Assembly: GCF_000699505.1 (NCBI RefSeq) | Contig: NZ_CP007490.1 | Coordinates: forward strand, 1,302,001-1,366,000 | Direction: 5' to 3' | DNA: 64,000 nucleotides | From: Rhodoluna lacicola | Lineage (GTDB): Bacteria > Actinomycetota > Actinomycetes > Actinomycetales > Microbacteriaceae | In this document: one piece after another, positions 4,133-53,882 of the stretch | Layout of the letters: each line of letters starts with the position of its first letter | Position numbering within the stretch: position 1 is the first letter of the stretch | Position numbers and translations under genes: made by a program | Notes under the pieces: model-generated | What the model saw: only the letters and a program-made list of their open reading frames with translations | Told to the model about the DNA's origin: nothing | Database searches by the model: none

Positions 4133-5914
4133 CTACTTATTGGTAGGGACCACCGAATTGCTCAGCGGCGAATCCACACTGGACGAGGTGGCGTTGCTGG
4201 CCACCACGGTGAAGGCATAGGTCACGCCGGCTCGCAGCTTGAGCACCGCGGTGGTTGCGTTGGCCGCCACCCTAAGTGTGCCCACCACATTGCCGCCTGC
4301 CCAGACGCGCACGGTCTGCGAAACCAAGGGGTTCAAGCTGTTGTCAGCCTGCACCCAGGTCACGGTTGCGGCTCGCTTGCCGGCAACTGCAGACACCGAT
4401 ACCGGCGCCGCCGGCGCCTTGGCCACCGGAATTCCGATTCCGGCAGGGTTTGCGTACAGCAACGCATTTACCGTGCCGGCTGGAAGTGAACTGATTACGT
4501 CTTTGGTGGCGGCATCGGTAAGGGCCAAGGCCACAATATTTGGCTGTTGGAATCCGCCAGCCAAGAGCAATGCGGCTACGCCAGCTACGTGTGGGGATGC
4601 CATTGAGGTTCCGCTTAGCACCGCTGTTGCAGTGTCGCCGGTGAACCAGGCGGCGTTGATTGCCGATCCCGGTGCAGCCAGATCAACGCAGGATCCAAAG
4701 TTGCTGTAGCTGGCGAAAGTATCGGTGTTGGTGGTTGCAGCCACGGTAATCGCCCCAGAGACACGAGCTGGCGAACTTGTACAAGAATCTACTTTTGAGT
4801 TTCCAGCGGCGGCAACCACGGTAATTCCCCGGTTAATCAGCGAGTTAACGGCCGCATCAAGGGATGAGTTTGCCCCGCCACCAAGGCTCATGTTCACCAC
4901 GGCAGGGGTGCCATCAACGTGCTGGCCGGCAATCCAGTCCAGGCCGGCAATCACGCCAGAAATACTGCCGGAGCCATCGCAGCCAAGCACGCGAACGGGA
5001 ATCAAAGTGGCGGCCTTGGCCACGCCGTAGTTCGTACCCGCGGCAATTGAGGAAACGTGGGTTCCGTGGCCGTTACAGTCCTCAGTGCCGTTGGTGTCAG
5101 TGATTGACGAGTAGCCGGCGCTCACTCGACCGGTGAATTCTGCGTGGCTGGAGCGAATTCCGGTGTCAACCACGTAAATCTGCACCCCAGAGCCGTTGCT
5201 GCTGTAGCTGTAGGAGCTAGAAAGCGGCAGCGCGGTCTGGTCAATTCGGTCAATTCCCCAGGCAGCCGGGCTGATCTGGGTCTCGGTGGCGGTGACCTCG
5301 GCGTCCTCGGTGATTGAGGCCACGGTGCCGCGCTTGGCAAAGGCGGCGCGCTGTTTATCGGTCAATCCGGCCACCACGCCCTTGAAAACCTTGCTGAACT
5401 GCTTGCCTACGGTGGCCTTGGCCGAGCGAAGGGCTGAAATCTCGTTGCCAGGGTCAGCCGCCTCATTAAAGCGAATGATGTACTGAACCTTATTGCCGTT
5501 GTCCTTGAGTTCGGCCGCCTTGGCCAGGGCAGCGGCCTTCTTCTGGGCGCCGGTTAACTTGACCGGGTTGCCAAAGGTGGCTTTGCCCTCGGCGGTTACC
5601 GGCTTTCCGGTGGCATCGTTCTTGGCGTTGACAAAATCTTTGCTGATGTCTGAAGGCTTGCCGGTTTCGGCCGGTTTATTGGTGCCAACCGGGTCTCCAG
5701 AGGCAACTGGCTTGCCCGAGTCAACCGGCTTGCCGGTTACTTTATCGGTGTTGGAATCTGTGTTGATTACCAGCGGGGTGCCTGGCTTGCCGTTGCCCAG
5801 CATTCCGTTGCCCGGGTTTGTGTCTGGCTTGGCCGCATTGGCAAGGTTGGCGCCGGTCAACACCAGGGTTGCAACAGCACAGGAAGCAAGAAAAACACCG
5901 ATTTTTGTACGCAT
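4133..5914 (-). CDS. Secreted subtilisin-like serine protease (S8) with inhibitor I9 propeptide
   Basis: 593 residues. A signal peptide (about 1-28, ending NLANAA) is followed by a Gly/Lys/Pro-rich spacer containing repeated GKP/NKP turns (about 30-105). An I9-type propeptide comes next (about 145-205, VQYIIRFNE to TVASITEDAEV), then the S8 catalytic domain with Asp in VVDTGIRSSH, His in CNGHGTHVSSIAAG and Ser in SGTSMASPHVAGVAAL. All three catalytic residues are present. A fibronectin type III-like domain forms the last 90 residues. Expected to be exported and self-processed. It ends without an LAxTG anchor. The GKP-rich spacer between signal and propeptide is unusual for the family. Confidence 0.93.
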   Translation of the reverse strand: MRTKIGVFLASCAVATLVLTGANLANAAKPDTNPGNGMLGNGKPGTPLVINTDSNTDKVTGKPVDSGKPVASGDPVGTNKPAETGKPSDISKDFVNAKNDATGKPVTAEGKATFGNPVKLTGAQKKAAALAKAAELKDNGNKVQYIIRFNEAADPGNEISALRSAKATVGKQFSKVFKGVVAGLTDKQRAAFAKRGTVASITEDAEVTATETQISPAAWGIDRIDQTALPLSSSYSYSSNGSGVQIYVVDTGIRSSHAEFTGRVSAGYSSITDTNGTEDCNGHGTHVSSIAAGTNYGVAKAATLIPVRVLGCDGSGSISGVIAGLDWIAGQHVDGTPAVVNMSLGGGANSSLDAAVNSLINRGITVVAAAGNSKVDSCTSSPARVSGAITVAATTNTDTFASYSNFGSCVDLAAPGSAINAAWFTGDTATAVLSGTSMASPHVAGVAALLLAGGFQQPNIVALALTDAATKDVISSLPAGTVNALLYANPAGIGIPVAKAPAAPVSVSAVAGKRAATVTWVQADNSLNPLVSQTVRVWAGGNVVGTLRVAANATTAVLKLRAGVTYAFTVVASNATSSSVDSPLSNSVVPTNK

Positions 5915-7705: not shown

Positions 7706-8893
7706 CTACTTTGCGCCAAAGACAGCAGCAATTACGCGGGCGGTAGCCTTTCCGTCCTCTAGCGAATTGAACTTTTGCTGCCAGGCTTTGTAGGCCTTGC
7801 CGTACTGCTTGGCCACTTCATTGATGTTCTCTAGCGCAGCAATAACCTCGGCGGTGGTGTGGCAAATTGGTCCAGGTGCCTCGGCAACGAAATCAAAATA
7901 GAAACCACGATCTGCAACATACTTATCGATATCTGGGGTCAAGAAAATCATTGGCTTGCCCGTGATTGCAAAATCAAACATCACCGATGAATAATCCGTG
8001 ATCAAAACATCAGCGGCCAAATAAAGCTCTGTAATGTCTGGGTAATCGGTGACATCAATTGCGCCGTTCGCGGTTTTTGAATTGTGCGCGTCAAGAGTCA
8101 TGCTGTGGCCGCGATACATCAACTGAAAACCCTTAGGCATTTTGGTGGCCGCATCAATGTGGTTCACGGTTTGCAAAGTTCCAATTGCATTGCGATTGGT
8201 GTCGCGCCAGGTTGGTGCGTACAAAACCAGCTGAGTCTGCGCGCTCTTAACGCCAAGTTGCTTGCGTACCCGATTGCGAACTGCAACGCGCTCATCCGCA
8301 CTTGCACTGAGTCTGTCATTGCGCGGGTAACCAACCTCAAGAGTGTTGCCTGATCCGTTTTTAATCGGAAAACCAAAGGACGATGCAAAACACTTGGTTG
8401 CATAGGCACTTGGTGAAATTAGGTAATCCCAGGCGGCAGCCTCTTTGCGCATTGTGCTGAGGTACTGAGCAGAAACTTTTCCGGCTTCAATGTCTCGCAC
8501 CAAACGCTTTAGCGGAGTACCGTGCCAAGTCTGCAAATAAATCTGGCCAGAAACTTTTTTAAAATACCAAGGGAAGGCGGAATTGTTCACCAGGAATTTG
8601 GCAGTTGCTAAAACTTTTAGCCATTCGCGCGAACCGTACTTCAAACCGGTTGAACCCTGTGGCGCTTGAACCCCCGGCTTCACGGTCCAAAAGAACTCCA
8701 AGTCAGGTCGCGAAATTTTCAGTGCATTGAAAATATCCAGCGGGCTATCGCCAATTACTTTTCCGTCGAACGCCTCAAACAAAACCGCGTTACGAAGTTG
8801 CACACCATCTACAGGCCGATACAGAGCACTGCGAATCAAATCGTTCTTGCGGCGGCGAAGAGCACCGATGATTCGTGCCGGTGTGTAGGTCAC
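7706..8893 (-). CDS. CDP-glycerol glycerophosphotransferase family protein (TagB/TagF-like)
   Basis: 395 residues from a GTG at 8893. Family landmarks are clear: YLQTWHGTPLKRLVRDIE, GYPRNDRL, YAPTWRDTNRN, MYRGHSMT, and the C-terminal TDYSSVMFDFAITGKPMIFL, where conserved residues bind CDP-glycerol. Members polymerise or prime glycerol-phosphate (teichoic acid-like) chains on the cytoplasmic face of the membrane. The start codon overlaps the TGA of the GT2 gene upstream (GTGA, 4 bp), so it is co-translated with it. With the ABC-2 exporter in the same operon, this points to a teichoic acid-like or phosphopolyol wall polymer. Whether it primes or polymerises is not decided. Confidence 0.9.
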   Translation of the reverse strand: MTYTPARIIGALRRRKNDLIRSALYRPVDGVQLRNAVLFEAFDGKVIGDSPLDIFNALKISRPDLEFFWTVKPGVQAPQGSTGLKYGSREWLKVLATAKFLVNNSAFPWYFKKVSGQIYLQTWHGTPLKRLVRDIEAGKVSAQYLSTMRKEAAAWDYLISPSAYATKCFASSFGFPIKNGSGNTLEVGYPRNDRLSASADERVAVRNRVRKQLGVKSAQTQLVLYAPTWRDTNRNAIGTLQTVNHIDAATKMPKGFQLMYRGHSMTLDAHNSKTANGAIDVTDYPDITELYLAADVLITDYSSVMFDFAITGKPMIFLTPDIDKYVADRGFYFDFVAEAPGPICHTTAEVIAALENINEVAKQYGKAYKAWQQKFNSLEDGKATARVIAAVFGAK

Positions 8894-48221: not shown

Positions 48222-48357
48222 AAGTGCGCTACCAAGCTGCGCTACAGCCCGCTATTAGATACCAAAAAGGATAAGAGAAAATCCCGGTCCTCGTGAGAAG
48301 GAACCGGGATTTCGTGCGCTTGGAGGGACTCGAACCCCCAACCTTCTGATCCGTAGT
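48220..48357. repeat. Right 138-bp direct repeat bordering the island
   Basis: Counterpart of 40796-40933. Its start (48220-48251) is the 5' half of tRNA-Pro, from the anticodon stem to the 5' end, a pseudogene. Its end lies inside the complete tRNA-Arg. The spacer carries the terminator at 48281-48310. Confidence 0.88.
48281..48310 (-). terminator. Terminator of tRNA-Arg
   Basis: ATCCCGGT pairs with ACCGGGAT across an inner CC/GG pair and short loop; the minus strand continues with TTTTCTCTT. The left-repeat copy has different bases but the same pairing (compensatory change). Confidence 0.8.
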
Positions 48358-48387
48358 CAGATGCTCTATCCGTTGAGCTACAAACGC
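48315..48387 (-). tRNA. tRNA-Arg (ACG)
   Basis: Complete cloverleaf on the minus strand: acceptor GCGTTTG/CAAGCGC, anticodon loop CTACGGA with anticodon ACG (first base presumably modified to inosine), T-loop TTCGAGT, discriminator A. CCA is not encoded. The 3' half is also present as a remnant at 40891-40933. Confidence 0.93.
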
Positions 48388-48552: not shown

Positions 48553-48646
48553 TGGCGGAGACGAGAGGATTTGAACCTCCGAAGGGCTTTAACACCCTTA
48601 CCTCATTAGCAGTGAGGCGCACTCGACCGGGCTATGCGACGTCTCC
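48553..48646 (-). tRNA. tRNA-Ser (GCT), CCA encoded
   Basis: Minus strand, 94 nt including CCA, with the long variable arm of serine tRNAs (TAAGGGTGTTAAAGCCCTT). Acceptor GGAGACG/CGTCTCC, anticodon loop CTGCTAA with anticodon GCT, T-loop TTCAAAT. The 165-bp gap to tRNA-Arg holds only a short GAGAGCTAGCTCTC palindrome; the 164-bp gap 48647-48810 shows nothing. Confidence 0.93.
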
Positions 48647-48810: not shown

Positions 48811-49920
48811 CTAAACTGCCTTATTCGAGGGCTTTGCCAGGCGGCTTTTCAAGTACTTTTTGAACGCCTTCAGGGCCAGCCAGACAAGGCTAGGTTCCCT
48901 GCGTTTTTGTCCGCCCTTTGAAGGCCTGCGGCGCGATACGTACCAGATCAAGCATGCAATCAAGGCTGTAAAAAAGAACGGTTCCTTCCACTGAACAACG
49001 AATACCGATGACTCCACAGTGACAGGGTCAAACTTTGTGCCACCGAGTTCCGAGTGCAGGGTTGTCTTAATTTTGACAGGCCCAAAATCGGGTAGCACGT
49101 TGACTGTTTCTCGAGATCCCTCAATGTTGGATTGGGTTATGACAGATCTGGTGGCGCTTCGCCCACCCAACAAAATGCTTTTGGATGTCCGCTTGGTTGC
49201 CAAAACCTTTTCGTTGGCGCTAATTTCCCAGCTCGCGAATGCAAAAACAGGGAGTTCCCCTTTGTTTCTGTATCTGACTTTTGCCTCAATTGGCCCCGAA
49301 TTAATCAGCCCGGGCAGATCTGGGAGAAATGAGTCTATGATGCTTGTTCGATTTGTTGACGTGAAGTTGATTCGCGAAAGCTCTGCACCAGTTATTTTTC
49401 CGTTTTTTATGCTCCCTGCAAACCCATAAGGCGTCACATTCACCTGCGAGGCAATAGCGCCAGTGGAAGCGGCACTTGCAATTCCCGATTGTCTGGTACC
49501 GCCCAAAGGGTTCATGGATACCTTAATTCCGCCGTAGTAAATCTGCTCTATCTTTTTAAGCTTGGGCTTGAGAGTGATTAAAAATTCTGAACCAGATTTT
49601 GATGGTCGATATAGATTTTGGAATGGAGTGACCGAGAAAATTTTTGCCAGCGAATGTGGTGTTGAGTTTTCTGGAAGTCTCGCCTTATTCCCAGACTCAT
49701 CAAACACGTAATCCACAAACTGCACATCTATTTCAGCAGCGACTGGGCCAGTAATAATAACAACCAAATTGAGTGTGGGCTCAAGGATTCCAGGCTGGCC
49801 GATTATGAACTCTTCCGGCGGGTTACTGACCTTTAAGGTGTTAGAGGCCGCATACGACGGAATCGCGGTAACTCCAAAAGACAGAGTTACCGCGACTACA
49901 TAAGCGAGTAATTTTTTCAA
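48811..49920 (-). CDS. Exported membrane-anchored protein of unknown function (DUF916-like layout)
   Basis: 369 residues. Signal peptide (1-24, ending PSYAA), about 270 residues of beta-rich extracellular sequence, one transmembrane helix (about 310-328, FFFTALIACLIWYV) and a strongly basic cytoplasmic tail of ~40 residues (RRRPSKGGQKRREP). The layout and segments such as ISVTP- and GGIKVSM-type strands recall DUF916/WxL-interacting surface proteins of Gram-positives, but I cannot confirm the family. It follows the secreted-protein gene at 49925 by only 4 nt in one operon, and the kinase/regulator pair is divergent. Confidence 0.7.
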   Translation of the reverse strand: MKKLLAYVVAVTLSFGVTAIPSYAASNTLKVSNPPEEFIIGQPGILEPTLNLVVIITGPVAAEIDVQFVDYVFDESGNKARLPENSTPHSLAKIFSVTPFQNLYRPSKSGSEFLITLKPKLKKIEQIYYGGIKVSMNPLGGTRQSGIASAASTGAIASQVNVTPYGFAGSIKNGKITGAELSRINFTSTNRTSIIDSFLPDLPGLINSGPIEAKVRYRNKGELPVFAFASWEISANEKVLATKRTSKSILLGGRSATRSVITQSNIEGSRETVNVLPDFGPVKIKTTLHSELGGTKFDPVTVESSVFVVQWKEPFFFTALIACLIWYVSRRRPSKGGQKRREPSLVWLALKAFKKYLKSRLAKPSNKAV

Positions 49921-49924
49921 ATTC

Positions 49925-50815
49925 TTAAGGACAGAATCCTATGAAACACTGCCAAGGTCCGTCGTTGAAACTTCCGGTGTCCAAGGTGAATCCGTGCTTA
50001 ACCCGATACTTGCCAACTGGGACGTCACCGAATATGGTTATCGACGCCTTGGTGGTGGCTTCTCCACCGGACCCCCAAATTACCGGCATGTTTTGATTTG
50101 TATACTCTGTTCCCCACGCCTGTACGTTCCAATCATCTTGAGGCCTCACCTCCCAGTGAACGTCATCGTAAAGTTTTACATCGTTTCTATTCACTCCGAA
50201 AAGAGAGTAGTCAACAAAGAGATTGGCGGATGCTCTTAGGGTTGAAGCACCCAAAATTCCATCTGCGTCAGTCATCTCAACCGGACTCCAGTAATCACCA
50301 TCATCGGTAAAAAAGCGTTCGACCGGTTGGCGCTCGGTCCAAACGTAACCCTGCCGATCAGATACCTCACAGTTGTCGGCGTCAAAACTAACTTGAAAGT
50401 CTTGAGATACGAAGTTTGTGCGGGTATTTTCACGCAAGAGATCCAACGGATACCGACTCAGGTCTCTTGGGTCTCGAACAACGCCTGCGGAGGGATCTTG
50501 ATTCTGATCACTTACGGCAGGGGTTTCTGAGTTGTTGTCATCGTCGTACCCGTCACCTTCCCACGCAGTTTTGAGGATCTTGCGCTCTTTTCTAACGGAT
50601 ATGTTGGTAAGAGGGATACTTAGGGATCCAAAGCCCGTGCAACTATCGGGGCCGCCGTCATCGGGGTTATCTCCTAGATCCACAGACACTGTAACGATTT
50701 CATCTGGTCCAGAAGAGTCCTCCCAGGCATTAGCTGAGATAGGCGACAAAACGCCAACGACGGTGACAGCCGTGATGATTGCTATCGACTTCCAATTCCA
50801 CAAATTTTTACTCAT
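49925..50815 (-). CDS. Secreted Asp-rich protein of unknown function
   Basis: 296 residues with a signal peptide (about 1-30, ending ISANAW). The mature part is rich in Asp/Asn/Trp (DLGDNPDDGGPDS, DGYDDDNNSETP), has few basic residues, and ends with two Cys (WQCFIGFCP). I recognise no family. No transmembrane anchor, so it is probably released or bound to its operon partner at 48811, whose start is 4 nt downstream. It is divergent from the response regulator (128 bp), consistent with control by that two-component system. Confidence 0.65.
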   Translation of the reverse strand: MSKNLWNWKSIAIITAVTVVGVLSPISANAWEDSSGPDEIVTVSVDLGDNPDDGGPDSCTGFGSLSIPLTNISVRKERKILKTAWEGDGYDDDNNSETPAVSDQNQDPSAGVVRDPRDLSRYPLDLLRENTRTNFVSQDFQVSFDADNCEVSDRQGYVWTERQPVERFFTDDGDYWSPVEMTDADGILGASTLRASANLFVDYSLFGVNRNDVKLYDDVHWEVRPQDDWNVQAWGTEYTNQNMPVIWGSGGEATTKASITIFGDVPVGKYRVKHGFTLDTGSFNDGPWQCFIGFCP

Positions 50816-50864
50816 ATTAAAAGGCTAGAACTGGCAGTTCACACCGAAAAGGCTTCACGGGTAA

Positions 50865-50884
50865 TTGAGGGGATAACCCCTCAA
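50865..50884. promoter_or_regulatory. 8-bp inverted repeat between surface operon and response regulator
   Basis: TTGAGGGG-ATAA-CCCCTCAA lies midway in the 128-bp divergent region. It may be an operator for the LuxR-type regulator or a leader hairpin. The GGGGATAACC core loosely recalls the GGGGTATAACC motif at 2034. Confidence 0.45.
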
Positions 50885-50943
50885 GATAATCTCAATCGTT
50901 ATTTTCATGTAGGGAAAGCCCATCACTGCCTGATACTTAAGTC

Positions 50944-51594
50944 ATGCAGATGCGCGTTGCCTTAGTTGAAGATGACGACTTCACGCGCCTAACTGTTGCA
51001 TCTTCGCTGCGGGCTCAAGGCATTCAAGTAGTTATTGATACAGGCTCGGCCAGCGAGGCTCTACTGGAATTTGATAAAGCAACGCCGCACGTGGCGCTAC
51101 TAGATCTTCATCTTGGTAAAGGACCAACGGGAATAGACGTCGCAACTGCCTTTAGAAGTAAATCCCCGAACATTGGCATTGTGTTCTTGAGTAGTTTTGA
51201 GGATCCAAGGCTATTGAATCCAAGTTTGCCTCCACTGCCCTTCAGATCTATTTATCTGCACAAGAACAAAATAAGTGACATCTGGAACATTCTTGAGGCC
51301 CTACGAGCATCTATCGATAAGTCTGAGAGAGTCCCATCTATGGCGCGGGCAAGTTCGTCACCAATTGCCACCTTGACTGACGTGCAACTTGAGACTTTGA
51401 GACTTATGGCTCAGGGCCTTTCAAATGCCGAAATTGCCAAGCGCAGAAGCGTTACAGAAAAGTCCGTGGAGCTAGCCATCTCTAGGCTTGCCAAAACACT
51501 TGGCGTTGAAAAGGATTCGACAATAAATCAGAGGGTGCACATGGCAAACGTATATTTCCGTGCACTGGGACAAATGAAGAATGTCTCCGACTAA
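50944..51594 (+). CDS. Two-component response regulator, LuxR/NarL family
   Basis: 216 residues. The receiver domain (about 1-120) has the acidic pocket VEDDDF, the phospho-acceptor Asp in VALLDLHLGKGPTG and FLSSFED. The C-terminal HTH (about 140-200) is LTDVQLETLRLMAQGLSNAE and IAKRRSVTEKSVELAISRLA. A GATACT box ends 6 nt before the ATG, a possible leaderless start. The kinase gene overlaps it by 14 bp, so they form a pair. Likely targets are the divergent surface-protein genes. Confidence 0.9.
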   Translation: MQMRVALVEDDDFTRLTVASSLRAQGIQVVIDTGSASEALLEFDKATPHVALLDLHLGKGPTGIDVATAFRSKSPNIGIVFLSSFEDPRLLNPSLPPLPFRSIYLHKNKISDIWNILEALRASIDKSERVPSMARASSSPIATLTDVQLETLRLMAQGLSNAEIAKRRSVTEKSVELAISRLAKTLGVEKDSTINQRVHMANVYFRALGQMKNVSD

Positions 51595-53308
51595 AGAAGA
51601 GTCGTTTCTTGCTGCCGCAGGCGGGAAGTTTTTTCTAGACACCCGCTACCTTTTGCTGACTACTCCCTTAGTTATCACCACCTCCTTACTAACCACAAGT
51701 GCAGGATACTTCTCGCAAACAGAGCCCCCACTAAACACTCTTGGTCTTTTATCTGCTATTTTTCTCGCCAACATTTTCGCTCTATCTATTTGTGCTATCT
51801 GGGTTCTAGTTTTTTCTAAAACAATTTTTAGAAATCGAGCCAGGAATCCTGTTCCTTTATTTTGGGTGATTATATTTAGCGCAAGTGTTGGAGCACTAAA
51901 AGGCGCCATGACTGGTTTGGGTTGCTGGTTGCTTCAGATTGAATCCGACCTAGGATCCACCATCGTTGATCGAGTAGGTCAAACATCGCTGCTGGGGACC
52001 TGGTTAATCCCAGCCATATCATTGGTAGCGCACCGATTATCCGTCTTACAAGCCCAACGAGACTCCCTGGTGGCTGAACGTGTTTCTAACACCTTGATTG
52101 AATCTGGCATCGCGCAAACGCGTGATAATCAGGCCTCGCTTCGAGCCTTTGCGGACATGGCTAAATATGAACTCTCATCTATTGGCAGATCAACTAACGG
52201 TGAGGATTCTGCGAATCAGTACGCAAGTGCAATTCGAAGACTGGTGGCTGAGCAGTTGAGGCCGCTGAGTCACAGAATCTGGGAACAAGAAAACAAAAGA
52301 ATTTCAAGTTTTTCTCTTTCTGAGATTGCAAGGCAAGCCATTTTTAGTTTCACCCAAGCGCGAACTGTTGTCGCCGTGGTTTATGCCATCACAGCCTTTC
52401 CTTCAATAATCAAATCAGTAGGGATAAGTGAAGGTATTCTTCGCAGCATACTCGCCGGAGCGGTTATACAGGTTGGTTTCTGGCTCATGTCTGAGTTTAG
52501 GCCTAAAAAATATTGGGTTGCCACCTGTTGGTTTTTACTCGCCAATCTTGCGGTGTCATTCTTAACTTTTGTAACCGGAGAGATTGTCTTTGGCTACGTA
52601 TCTGCGTTTGATGAATTTCAAACGGTTTTGGCAGTTTGGCTGTGGCTGACACAATTGACATTTATAAGTGCCTTCCTCTTTGGGGTTCGTAAAGGTAGCT
52701 CAGAAATAAAACAGGAATTTGCCGATTTGTATGGGTCAGAAACTATTGATCGCGCTGTTCGTCTTAGTCAGGCAAGAATTCAAAACCGTGACTTTGCTAA
52801 CTATCTTCACGGGCAGGTACAAAACAAGCTACTTGCTGTTGCCCTTGGGCTTGAAAAAGGTGAGGCGACTAAAGAGGAACTTGAACAAGCACTAGCACTA
52901 GTCGAAAATATTTTGAAAACGTTAGATTCAGGTTTTCAAACCCTGAATTCTGGCGATTTAGAATCTGAACTAGCAAAATTAAGTAATCAGTGGCTTGGTT
53001 TCGTGAGAATTACATGGAATCTTGATAGCCATCTCAAGAATCTCGAAACAAGAAAACGAATACTGTTAATTCAACTAATTGACGAAGCTACCTCGAACGC
53101 GATTAGGCACGGTCTCGCTAAAAACGTTTTTGTGCTTGCAAAGGTTTTGTCCGATCAAAAAATAAATCTTGAAGTGATTGATGATGGCATCGGCCCACGC
53201 GCCGGTAAGGCCGGCTTGGGCTCAACCTTTTTTAACAGCGTCTCTAAAGGAAATTGGGACCTCGTCCAAGAATCAACCGGGGGAACTAAACTCACCTTGC
53301 AGTTCTAA
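51581..53308 (+). CDS. Two-component sensor histidine kinase with eight membrane helices
   Basis: 575 residues. Two blocks of four hydrophobic segments (about 20-165 and 265-370) are separated by a helical cytoplasmic stretch. A dimerisation segment with FANYLHGQVQNKLLAVALGL supplies the candidate phospho-His; HGQ differs from the more usual HDE/HDL. The HATPase part has LIDEATSNAIRHGLAKNVFV (N box) and EVIDDGIGPRAGKAGLGSTF (G boxes). No known extracellular sensor domain is present, so the two four-helix blocks are the likely sensor. It is AT-richer than neighbours by eye. It ends in a 17-bp tail overlap with the convergent gene. Confidence 0.85.
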   Translation: MSPTKEESFLAAAGGKFFLDTRYLLLTTPLVITTSLLTTSAGYFSQTEPPLNTLGLLSAIFLANIFALSICAIWVLVFSKTIFRNRARNPVPLFWVIIFSASVGALKGAMTGLGCWLLQIESDLGSTIVDRVGQTSLLGTWLIPAISLVAHRLSVLQAQRDSLVAERVSNTLIESGIAQTRDNQASLRAFADMAKYELSSIGRSTNGEDSANQYASAIRRLVAEQLRPLSHRIWEQENKRISSFSLSEIARQAIFSFTQARTVVAVVYAITAFPSIIKSVGISEGILRSILAGAVIQVGFWLMSEFRPKKYWVATCWFLLANLAVSFLTFVTGEIVFGYVSAFDEFQTVLAVWLWLTQLTFISAFLFGVRKGSSEIKQEFADLYGSETIDRAVRLSQARIQNRDFANYLHGQVQNKLLAVALGLEKGEATKEELEQALALVENILKTLDSGFQTLNSGDLESELAKLSNQWLGFVRITWNLDSHLKNLETRKRILLIQLIDEATSNAIRHGLAKNVFVLAKVLSDQKINLEVIDDGIGPRAGKAGLGSTFFNSVSKGNWDLVQESTGGTKLTLQF

Positions 53309-53882
53309 AGGCCCTTCTAACCGGATACTCCAAATAGTCAGCGGCAAATTCTAAATTCGGCGAGCGCCAAGCAAAATCGCGAGCCACCTTAGCCAGAGCT
53401 GCCCAAAAGAAAACATTCAATAAATCCACACCGATGTGAGTCATGCTGTCACCAGGTAGTGCCTTACCGATCATTCGGCGCAGCAGGGTTGGAACATCGC
53501 TTAGGCCAAATCGGTGTAGGGCTGCACGCACCTCAAACTCAAGTTCGCGCGCTCGTCGCGGGTTCCAGAGCGGGTTTCCGCCGGAGCCATCGCCCATCCG
53601 GCCGTATTCATCGGTGGGTAAATGAAGCAGAATGTGGGCAACCATTGCGTGGCGGTAATGGGCGCCGTCTAACTGGTCGAAAATCTCGGCAAAGTTCTCA
53701 ATTTCGTAGCCGCACTTGCGCAGGTCAAGGACATCGGGGTAATAGGGGAACTTATAAAAGGGGATGTGCTTGATTTCTGGCTGGCCCTTGCGAATGCGCA
53801 CCTTGGTGCTGGAATCGGCCTCGGCAACGCCCCAGTTTAGGGTTGCCTCATCGGGCTCGCCTGCCTGCCAGTCATTGCTCAT
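53292..53882 (-). CDS. Conserved cytoplasmic protein of unknown function
   Basis: 196 residues, no signal peptide or membrane helix. It has a short N-terminal acidic part, then VLDLRKCGYEIENFAEIFDQ, HYRHAMVAHILLHLPTDEYG and a helical C-terminal half. I recognise no family. It stands alone in the gap between the two-component system (convergent, 17-bp overlap) and the serine hydrolase (same direction, 19 bp upstream). Confidence 0.6.
   Translation of the reverse strand: MSNDWQAGEPDEATLNWGVAEADSSTKVRIRKGQPEIKHIPFYKFPYYPDVLDLRKCGYEIENFAEIFDQLDGAHYRHAMVAHILLHLPTDEYGRMGDGSGGNPLWNPRRARELEFEVRAALHRFGLSDVPTLLRRMIGKALPGDSMTHIGVDLLNVFFWAALAKVARDFAWRSPNLEFAADYLEYPVRRAFRTAR

Follow-up and report, generated by a model that had tools for sequence, protein, structure and literature searches.

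A candidate self-amplifying two-component switch for adjacent surface genes in Rhodoluna lacicola, with exchanged cargo in related Microbacteriaceae

The four-gene block described here lies in a 64-kb window (the whole stretch of DNA analysed, positions 1302001-1366000) of the closed Rhodoluna lacicola MWH-Ta8 genome, and encodes two exported proteins, one secreted and one anchored, divergently from a LuxR-type response regulator and an eight-helix sensor kinase. Three described systems come closest to it. In the DesK/DesR type (HisKA_3 kinase, NarL-FixJ regulator), a membrane-embedded sensor with small loops acts through a LuxR-type regulator; DesK carries an acidic residue after its active histidine, and its target is a desaturase. 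The dedicated sortase two-component system of Proteobacteria (TIGR03787) has a regulator pair dedicated to adjacent surface proteins, and the output of its regulator is of the OmpR type. The WxLIP/WxL clusters of Firmicutes encode an anchored protein of about 350 amino acids (aa), with beta domains and a C-terminal transmembrane (TM) helix, together with one or two secreted proteins (PMC10599100; PDB 9i1y). As that paper describes its reference set, WxLIPs have two Ig-like domains and a single C-terminal helix and, apart from one short member, measure 337-365 aa; the commonest cluster ratio is one WxLIP to two secreted WxL proteins, in 98 of 179 clusters (PMC10599100). R. lacicola MWH-Ta8 itself is described as a streamlined freshwater member of the Microbacteriaceae with a genome of 1,430,433 bases (PMC4156110).

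We propose, with a probability of roughly 0.72, that the block is a dedicated, self-amplifying two-component switch for the adjacent surface genes. The evidence read from the sequence is the gene anatomy, a conserved dyad that is nearly unique in several genomes, the exported neighbour, and the lack of the dyad where that neighbour is lacking. In the mechanism that we infer, the kinase would sense the state of the membrane via its transmembrane bundle and phosphorylate the regulator on D54. The phosphorylated regulator would bind the dyad TTGANGGGNTARCCCNTCAA in the shared promoter gap and there activate, rather than repress, its own leaderless operon as well as the exported pair divergent from it. 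The anchored WxLIP-like protein would then probably pair with the secreted acidic partner and hold it at the cell wall. Other, unrelated surface proteins would be under the control of this regulator/kinase/dyad backbone in related Microbacteriaceae of fresh water. The features concerned are as follows.

48811..49920, minus strand: anchored exported protein, WxLIP-like, 369 aa; signal peptide, two predicted beta domains, one C-terminal TM helix, basic tail
49925..50815, minus strand: secreted acidic partner, 296 aa, isoelectric point (pI) 4.2; first gene of the exported pair
50865..50884, no strand: predicted main operator, dyad TTGAGGGGATAACCCCTCAA, centred 69 bp before the regulator start and 59 bp before the exported-pair start
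50907..50926, no strand: second, weaker dyad copy ATGTAGGGAAAGCCCATCAC, matching at 13 of 17 defined positions, 42 bp from the main dyad
50932..50937, plus strand: putative -10 box GATACT, exactly 6 nt before the regulator ATG
50944..51594, plus strand: LuxR/NarL-type response regulator, 216 aa; D10, D11, D54 and K107 present
51581..53308, plus strand: sensor kinase with eight TM helices (4+4), 575 aa; cytoplasmic helical hairpin between the halves, predicted DesK-like core, H410

All four open reading frames (ORFs) were confirmed at these positions. The regulator and kinase ORFs overlap by 14 bp, and the anchored gene has a TTG start, 4 bp past the preceding stop. The divergent pairs are separated by 128 bp, and both this gap and the 8-bp palindrome within it, noted in an earlier sequence-only reading, are present; the palindrome, at 50865-50884, reads TTGAGGGG-ATAA-CCCCTCAA. 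Perfect 8-bp arms no more than 6 apart were found in 29 of 2000 Markov-resampled 128-bp sequences. The palindrome alone is thus only mildly unusual, and it is its conservation that carries the weight. The sequence-only reading had suggested checking that conservation, and similar dyads do stand between the regulator and an exported gene in homologous Microbacteriaceae loci. In the first eight loci the gap dyad has the consensus TTGANGGGNTARCCCNTCAA; six of the loci show it clearly, G015 and A. minutum weakly.

Whole-genome scans for the dyad were made in 12 genomes, seven with the regulator and five without, allowing up to 3 mismatches on both strands. The gap between regulator and exported gene is the best site in R. 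lacicola (G000) and G292, with 0 mismatches, and in G059 and G013, with 1; the next best site has 3 mismatches in each. Summed over the seven genomes with the regulator, the matches are no more numerous than those of the reversed-pattern control, so that there is no sign of a large regulon. Among genomes lacking the regulator, G016, G062, G060 and G101 have no dyad at up to 2 mismatches anywhere in the genome, and G080 has one match at 2 mismatches. At up to 3 mismatches on both strands G080 has 14 matches (for example C13:6186-6205) against 1 for the reversed control, perhaps belonging to another regulator with a similar site.

The core GGGNTARCCC was fixed on the eight loci before being applied to held-out loci, some of which are near relatives of each other. 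Of the held-out loci, 13 have an exported neighbour and 6 of these carry the core (0.026 expected); of the 9 without one, none does (0.031 expected). The wider pattern GGGNWARCCC is present in 12 of 16 loci (0.09 expected) and absent from G015, G030, G258 and G204. It was loosened after the Aurantimicrobium loci had been seen, and the weight is therefore placed on the held-out test.

The distribution of the regulator was examined with a model built from 8 sequences and searched against 398 Microbacteriaceae genomes; at most seven candidates per genome were scored, so that the counts are lower bounds. Matches at E ≤ 1e-50 occur in at least 19 of the 398 genomes and at least 7 of 85 genera, with one to four per genome (four in one genome, G443). 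Together with G013, G030 and G068 the 29 matches make a set of 32 regulators, and a kinase ORF adjoins 31 of them; at G298b the contig leaves only 802 bases on that side. For 21 of the 30 regulators that have upstream sequence, the first gene upstream, whichever way it runs, encodes an exported protein. Among the 16 best-scoring regulators (13 at 248 bits or more plus G013, G030 and G068, a cut-off drawn after the contexts had been seen) the figure is 15, G204 being the exception. Exported neighbours were found for 31 of 230 called genes as background (13.5%), and at 1 of 11 paralogous regulators used as a control, 2 more having been dropped for short flanks. Two automatic signal-peptide calls were overruled by hand, at G204 (an edge artefact) and at G298b, where we take the product to be an adenylosuccinate synthase. 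It is concluded that the arrangement is more than chance.

What is new, as read from predicted genes and sites, is one regulator/kinase/operator backbone that recurs with exchanged surface cargo. The cargo is collagen-like in G030 (below NCBIfam cut-offs) and G443b_2, has RCC1 repeats in G059 and ephrin-receptor-like Cys repeats in G013 and G015, and carries fn3 in A. minutum, DUF285 in G258, G443b_1 and G443c, a BspA-type leucine-rich repeat in G267, a beta-helix in G215b and BNR in G443a. The G068 locus has an exported pair, a secreted protein of 245 aa and an anchored one of 365 aa, laid out as in R. lacicola. Several cargo proteins of Aurantimicrobium and G149 have an LxxTG-like motif at their C-terminal end, followed by a helix and basic residues, and TIGR01167 scored above its cut-off in 2 of 10 cargo proteins scanned.

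Look-alike four-TM proteins were also seen near regulator loci of different genera (L100:14451-14930 and L044:8133-8792). The L044 protein has a collagen-like tail, and in L100 a collagen-like protein is encoded by a separate preceding gene; anchor and collagen are possibly fused in one case and split in the other.

The regulator is of the NarL/FixJ (LuxR) type, as the sequence-only reading had it. Its receiver and LuxR helix-turn-helix domains score above the curated Pfam cut-offs (PF00072, 37.4 bits against 30.2; PF00196, 30.6 bits against 23.5), and the phosphorylation pocket is present, with D10, D11, D54 and K107 invariant in 8 of 8 regulators. Like the TIGR03787 system it appears dedicated to adjacent surface proteins; unlike it, the output is LuxR-type, and the score against the TIGR03787 equivalog model is 29.1 bits, far below the cut-off of 335.7.

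The AlphaFold2 model of the kinase, made with 33 aligned relatives, has a predicted local distance difference test score (pLDDT) of 83 and a predicted template modelling score (pTM) of 0.70. It supports the eight helices that had been read from the sequence, and nearly nothing of the kinase is extracytoplasmic in it. We read the model as 4+4 membrane helices with a cytoplasmic helical hairpin between them, containing an RPLSH-like motif, and then the DHp and ATPase domains. The outer loops are of 17 residues at most and on average neutral to acidic, while the two short inner loops are basic. In Pfam, HATPase_c scored 23.3 bits, under the curated cut-off of 26.4, and HisKA_3, the Pfam mark of DesK-like kinases, gave no match at E ≤ 1. 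By Foldseek, DesK is the top PDB fold match of the catalytic part (2.4e-6), and the family profile gives the ATP-binding domain of DosT first (3.1e-8) and DesK next (5e-7); on this fold match and profile the catalytic core is predicted to be DesK-like. H410 is kept in all 32 aligned rows that reach it. The residue after this histidine is G, S or N in 32 of 32 rows and never acidic, which sets the kinase apart from DesK, as do the 4+4 arrangement with its hairpin and the surface-protein neighbours. The RPLSH-like motif is conserved in the hairpin of the kinase and 32 relatives. Because there is nearly no ectodomain, the kinase most likely senses the membrane rather than reading the exported pair.

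Further eight-helix kinase copies are found in R. lacicola at L039:8945-13170 and L040:7151-9543, including tandem kinases plus one regulator beside an eight-TM protein with a start resembling that of an NRAMP transporter. The regulators at these loci belong to another subfamily.

The sequence-only reading had placed the exported pair on the input side of a possible circuit, presenting or sensing a surface state for the kinase to read. In a fuller form, the secreted and anchored proteins would detect a surface or ligand and signal to the kinase through its membrane helices. The four genes are linked in two genera, the TM helix and basic tail of the anchored protein could touch the kinase, and the outer loop between kinase TM7 and TM8 is of up to 17 residues, all of which would suit such a sensor. 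We nevertheless regard it as unlikely, and that part of the earlier reading is not upheld: the kinase has almost no extracytoplasmic part, and other members of its family are encoded next to unrelated exported proteins, several of which have sortase-like tails, so that the exported proteins look like outputs. A quite different possibility is that a generic LuxR pair happens to lie by secreted-protein genes in a tRNA-side variable region and has its wider regulon elsewhere. Several loci are indeed beside tRNA genes, the cargo varies by locus, and 9 of the 30 regulators lack an exported upstream neighbour; the excess of exported neighbours over background, the held-out dyad test and the single outstanding dyad site at this gap in 4 of 7 genomes make chance neighbours the least probable of the explanations considered, and very improbable.

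The sign of the regulation was also considered. If the regulator repressed the exported pair and itself, with kinase signalling lifting the repression, the weaker dyad at 50907-50926 would be well placed, since, in the regulator promoter, it stops 5 bp short of the putative -10 box and overlies the probable -35 region. One dyad per locus was picked by hand for 14 loci, some of which have two, and its centre is 51-81 bp upstream of the regulator start in 13 of the 14, an activator-like position if the mRNA is leaderless. In 10 of 14 loci NATACT precedes the regulator ATG by exactly 6 nt, which suggests a leaderless mRNA. Repression therefore seems to us improbable, to about the same degree as a sensory role for the exported pair, and activation by the phosphorylated regulator is preferred. 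Several results weigh against this dedicated switch. The gap site is not the genome's best in 3 of the 7 regulator-bearing genomes scanned: in G068 and G030 it has 3 mismatches and is tied with others in the genome, and the G015 gap site departs from the dyad at 4 of the 17 defined positions, against 2 mismatches at another site of that genome. The narrow core is absent from 7 of the 13 held-out loci with an exported neighbour, and these patterns show no dyad in G258. A near-match dyad is present in G204 though that locus has no exported upstream neighbour, and the best dyad of G215a (12 of 17) sits 112 bp from the start.

A simple hydropathy rule gives each of the exported proteins a signal-type helix at its N terminus. 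The anchored protein has its C-terminal helix at residues 314-330 in the model, followed by a basic tail, and its partner is secreted and acidic, which bears out the earlier description of the pair. The anchored protein has a pI of 10.0; binding to the acidic partner would be favoured by this opposition in R. lacicola, unlike in G292, where the anchored and secreted relatives are acidic alike. The pair had been said to belong to no known family. This stood in profile searches, with no Pfam or NCBIfam match at E ≤ 1 for either protein, and needs qualifying by predicted fold, in which the anchored protein most resembles WxLIP. In a Foldseek search of 350,542 PDB chains the top match to its model was the E. 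faecium WxLIP (9i1y), with E 1.7e-6 over 306 alignment columns. Against the holding role proposed for it, this match has a TM-score of 0.25, comes from a model with pLDDT 51.7, and is joined by no profile match.

The usual marks of a WxLIP were compared (two Ig-like domains, a C-terminal TM helix, 320-380 aa). Length and helix fit, and for the fold there is the 9i1y match, given by the same low-scoring model. Among Pfam families at E ≤ 1 the anchored protein matches neither DUF916 nor DUF3324. A dual WxL motif was looked for in the partners: there is no W-x-L in 49925, and a single one in one of the two G292 partners. VIA-align of the anchored protein gave, in its best 50 rows, mostly generic domains at residues 176-312, naming no family, with WxLIP absent. 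The locus differs from the Firmicutes clusters also in belonging to an Actinobacterium and in having its own divergent two-component system. The layout fits a WxLIP, and neither the Pfam profiles nor the WxL motif does, so that the protein may act like one and cannot be filed as one. G292, with two secreted proteins and one anchored protein, shows the commonest WxL-cluster ratio.

Relatives of the anchored protein were found in G018 (68% identity) and G292 (30%), and relatives of the secreted protein in G018 (72%, partial) and twice in G292 (E 2e-8 and 0.002). A wide distribution of the pair was rejected: it occurs in 2 of 59 relatives (R. lacicola and G018, whose contig ends within the secreted gene), in 3 of 299 family genomes including G171, in 1 of 22 genomes of G292's genus and in 1 of 396 of the order. 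In G171 there is a degenerate match to the anchored protein (E 3.5e-10) with two internal stops.

The full block recurs, in the same divergent layout, in G292 only, that is, in one other genus, with identities to R. lacicola of 48% for the regulator, 25% for the kinase and 30% for the anchored protein. The four genes thus co-occur outside Rhodoluna, as the sequence-only reading had proposed to look for. It had also held that independent occurrence of the two halves in related genomes would speak against a module, and this was found in part: the regulator/kinase half mostly has some other exported protein next to it, and the exported half is seen without the regulator only in G018 (truncated contig) and G171 (degenerate trace). 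The regulator tree pairs R. lacicola with G292 (83/94). The kinase and joined trees do not resolve the two together, which leaves shared descent of the whole four-gene block unproven.

On its left the block is flanked by tRNA genes:

48553..48646, minus strand: tRNA-Ser(gct), flanking the block, 165 bp away
48314-48387: tRNA-Arg(acg), near tRNA-Ser(gct)

The position beside tRNA-Ser is thus as previously read, and the AT-richness claimed for the block is real and modest: the GC content is 44-49% over 49-53 kb, compared with 47-50% in the left 8 kb and 49-52% in the right 8 kb. The codon scorer left 48811 and 51581 uncalled, so that the codon use of the block looks atypical; the scorer was trained on the large ORFs of the window (at least 250 aa), possibly including members of the block. 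A tRNA lies within 300 bp in 4 of 7 Rhodoluna/G292 core loci (R. lacicola, G013, G015 and G292, not G030, G059 or G068), and is Ser(gct), Arg(acg) or Arg(tct). The same holds for 1 of 12 further loci scanned (G149), against a background of 13 of 488 control gene ends. There is thus a hint that, in the Rhodoluna/G292 group, insertion beside tRNA genes has happened repeatedly. G060 shares four genes left of the tRNAs; no tRNA was found in the 19.5 kb examined there, and no match to the right flank. In another genus (G336), L165 has a distant regulator/kinase/exported locus, its regulator at 7877-8515, close to the tRNA pair seen in R. lacicola, here tRNA-Ser(gct) at 2328 and tRNA-Arg(acg) at 4952.

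A 196-aa ORF (53292-53882) converges on the kinase 3' end with a 17-bp overlap, and has a sub-threshold match to a phage metallopeptidase family (E 0.036). A mobile or phage origin was considered and rejected, as there was no PHROG match at E ≤ 0.01 for 48811, 49925, 51581 or 53292, and the anchored protein was unmatched in plasmids and gave 40 pattern matches in viral contigs, none confirmed. A defence system was likewise rejected, PADLOC giving three weak matches, to the regulator only, the best of 16 bits.

Literature was searched on Rhodoluna surface regulation, freshwater sortase/kinase islands, divergent surface two-component systems, dedicated sortase systems and tRNA-side islands, and among the matches listed no title or abstract opening describes such a switch. 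R. lacicola and Aurantimicrobium photophilum are reported to be naturally transformable with gene replacement (PMC11577799), and the circuit can therefore be tested. Microbacteriaceae with genomes under 2 Mb keep the regulator in several genera, mostly beside surface proteins. We suggest tentatively, at somewhat less than even odds, that these are portable surface-display cassettes of streamlined freshwater actinobacteria, with a constant backbone and a surface protein exchanged between lineages, in some at tRNA-side sites. If so, the cassettes would let cells with minimal genomes vary their surface in plug-in fashion and under a single membrane-sensing control, for instance as protection from phage or grazers. 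The predicted operator would give a direct handle on the timing of surface change, which may in turn be tied to grazing and phage attack.

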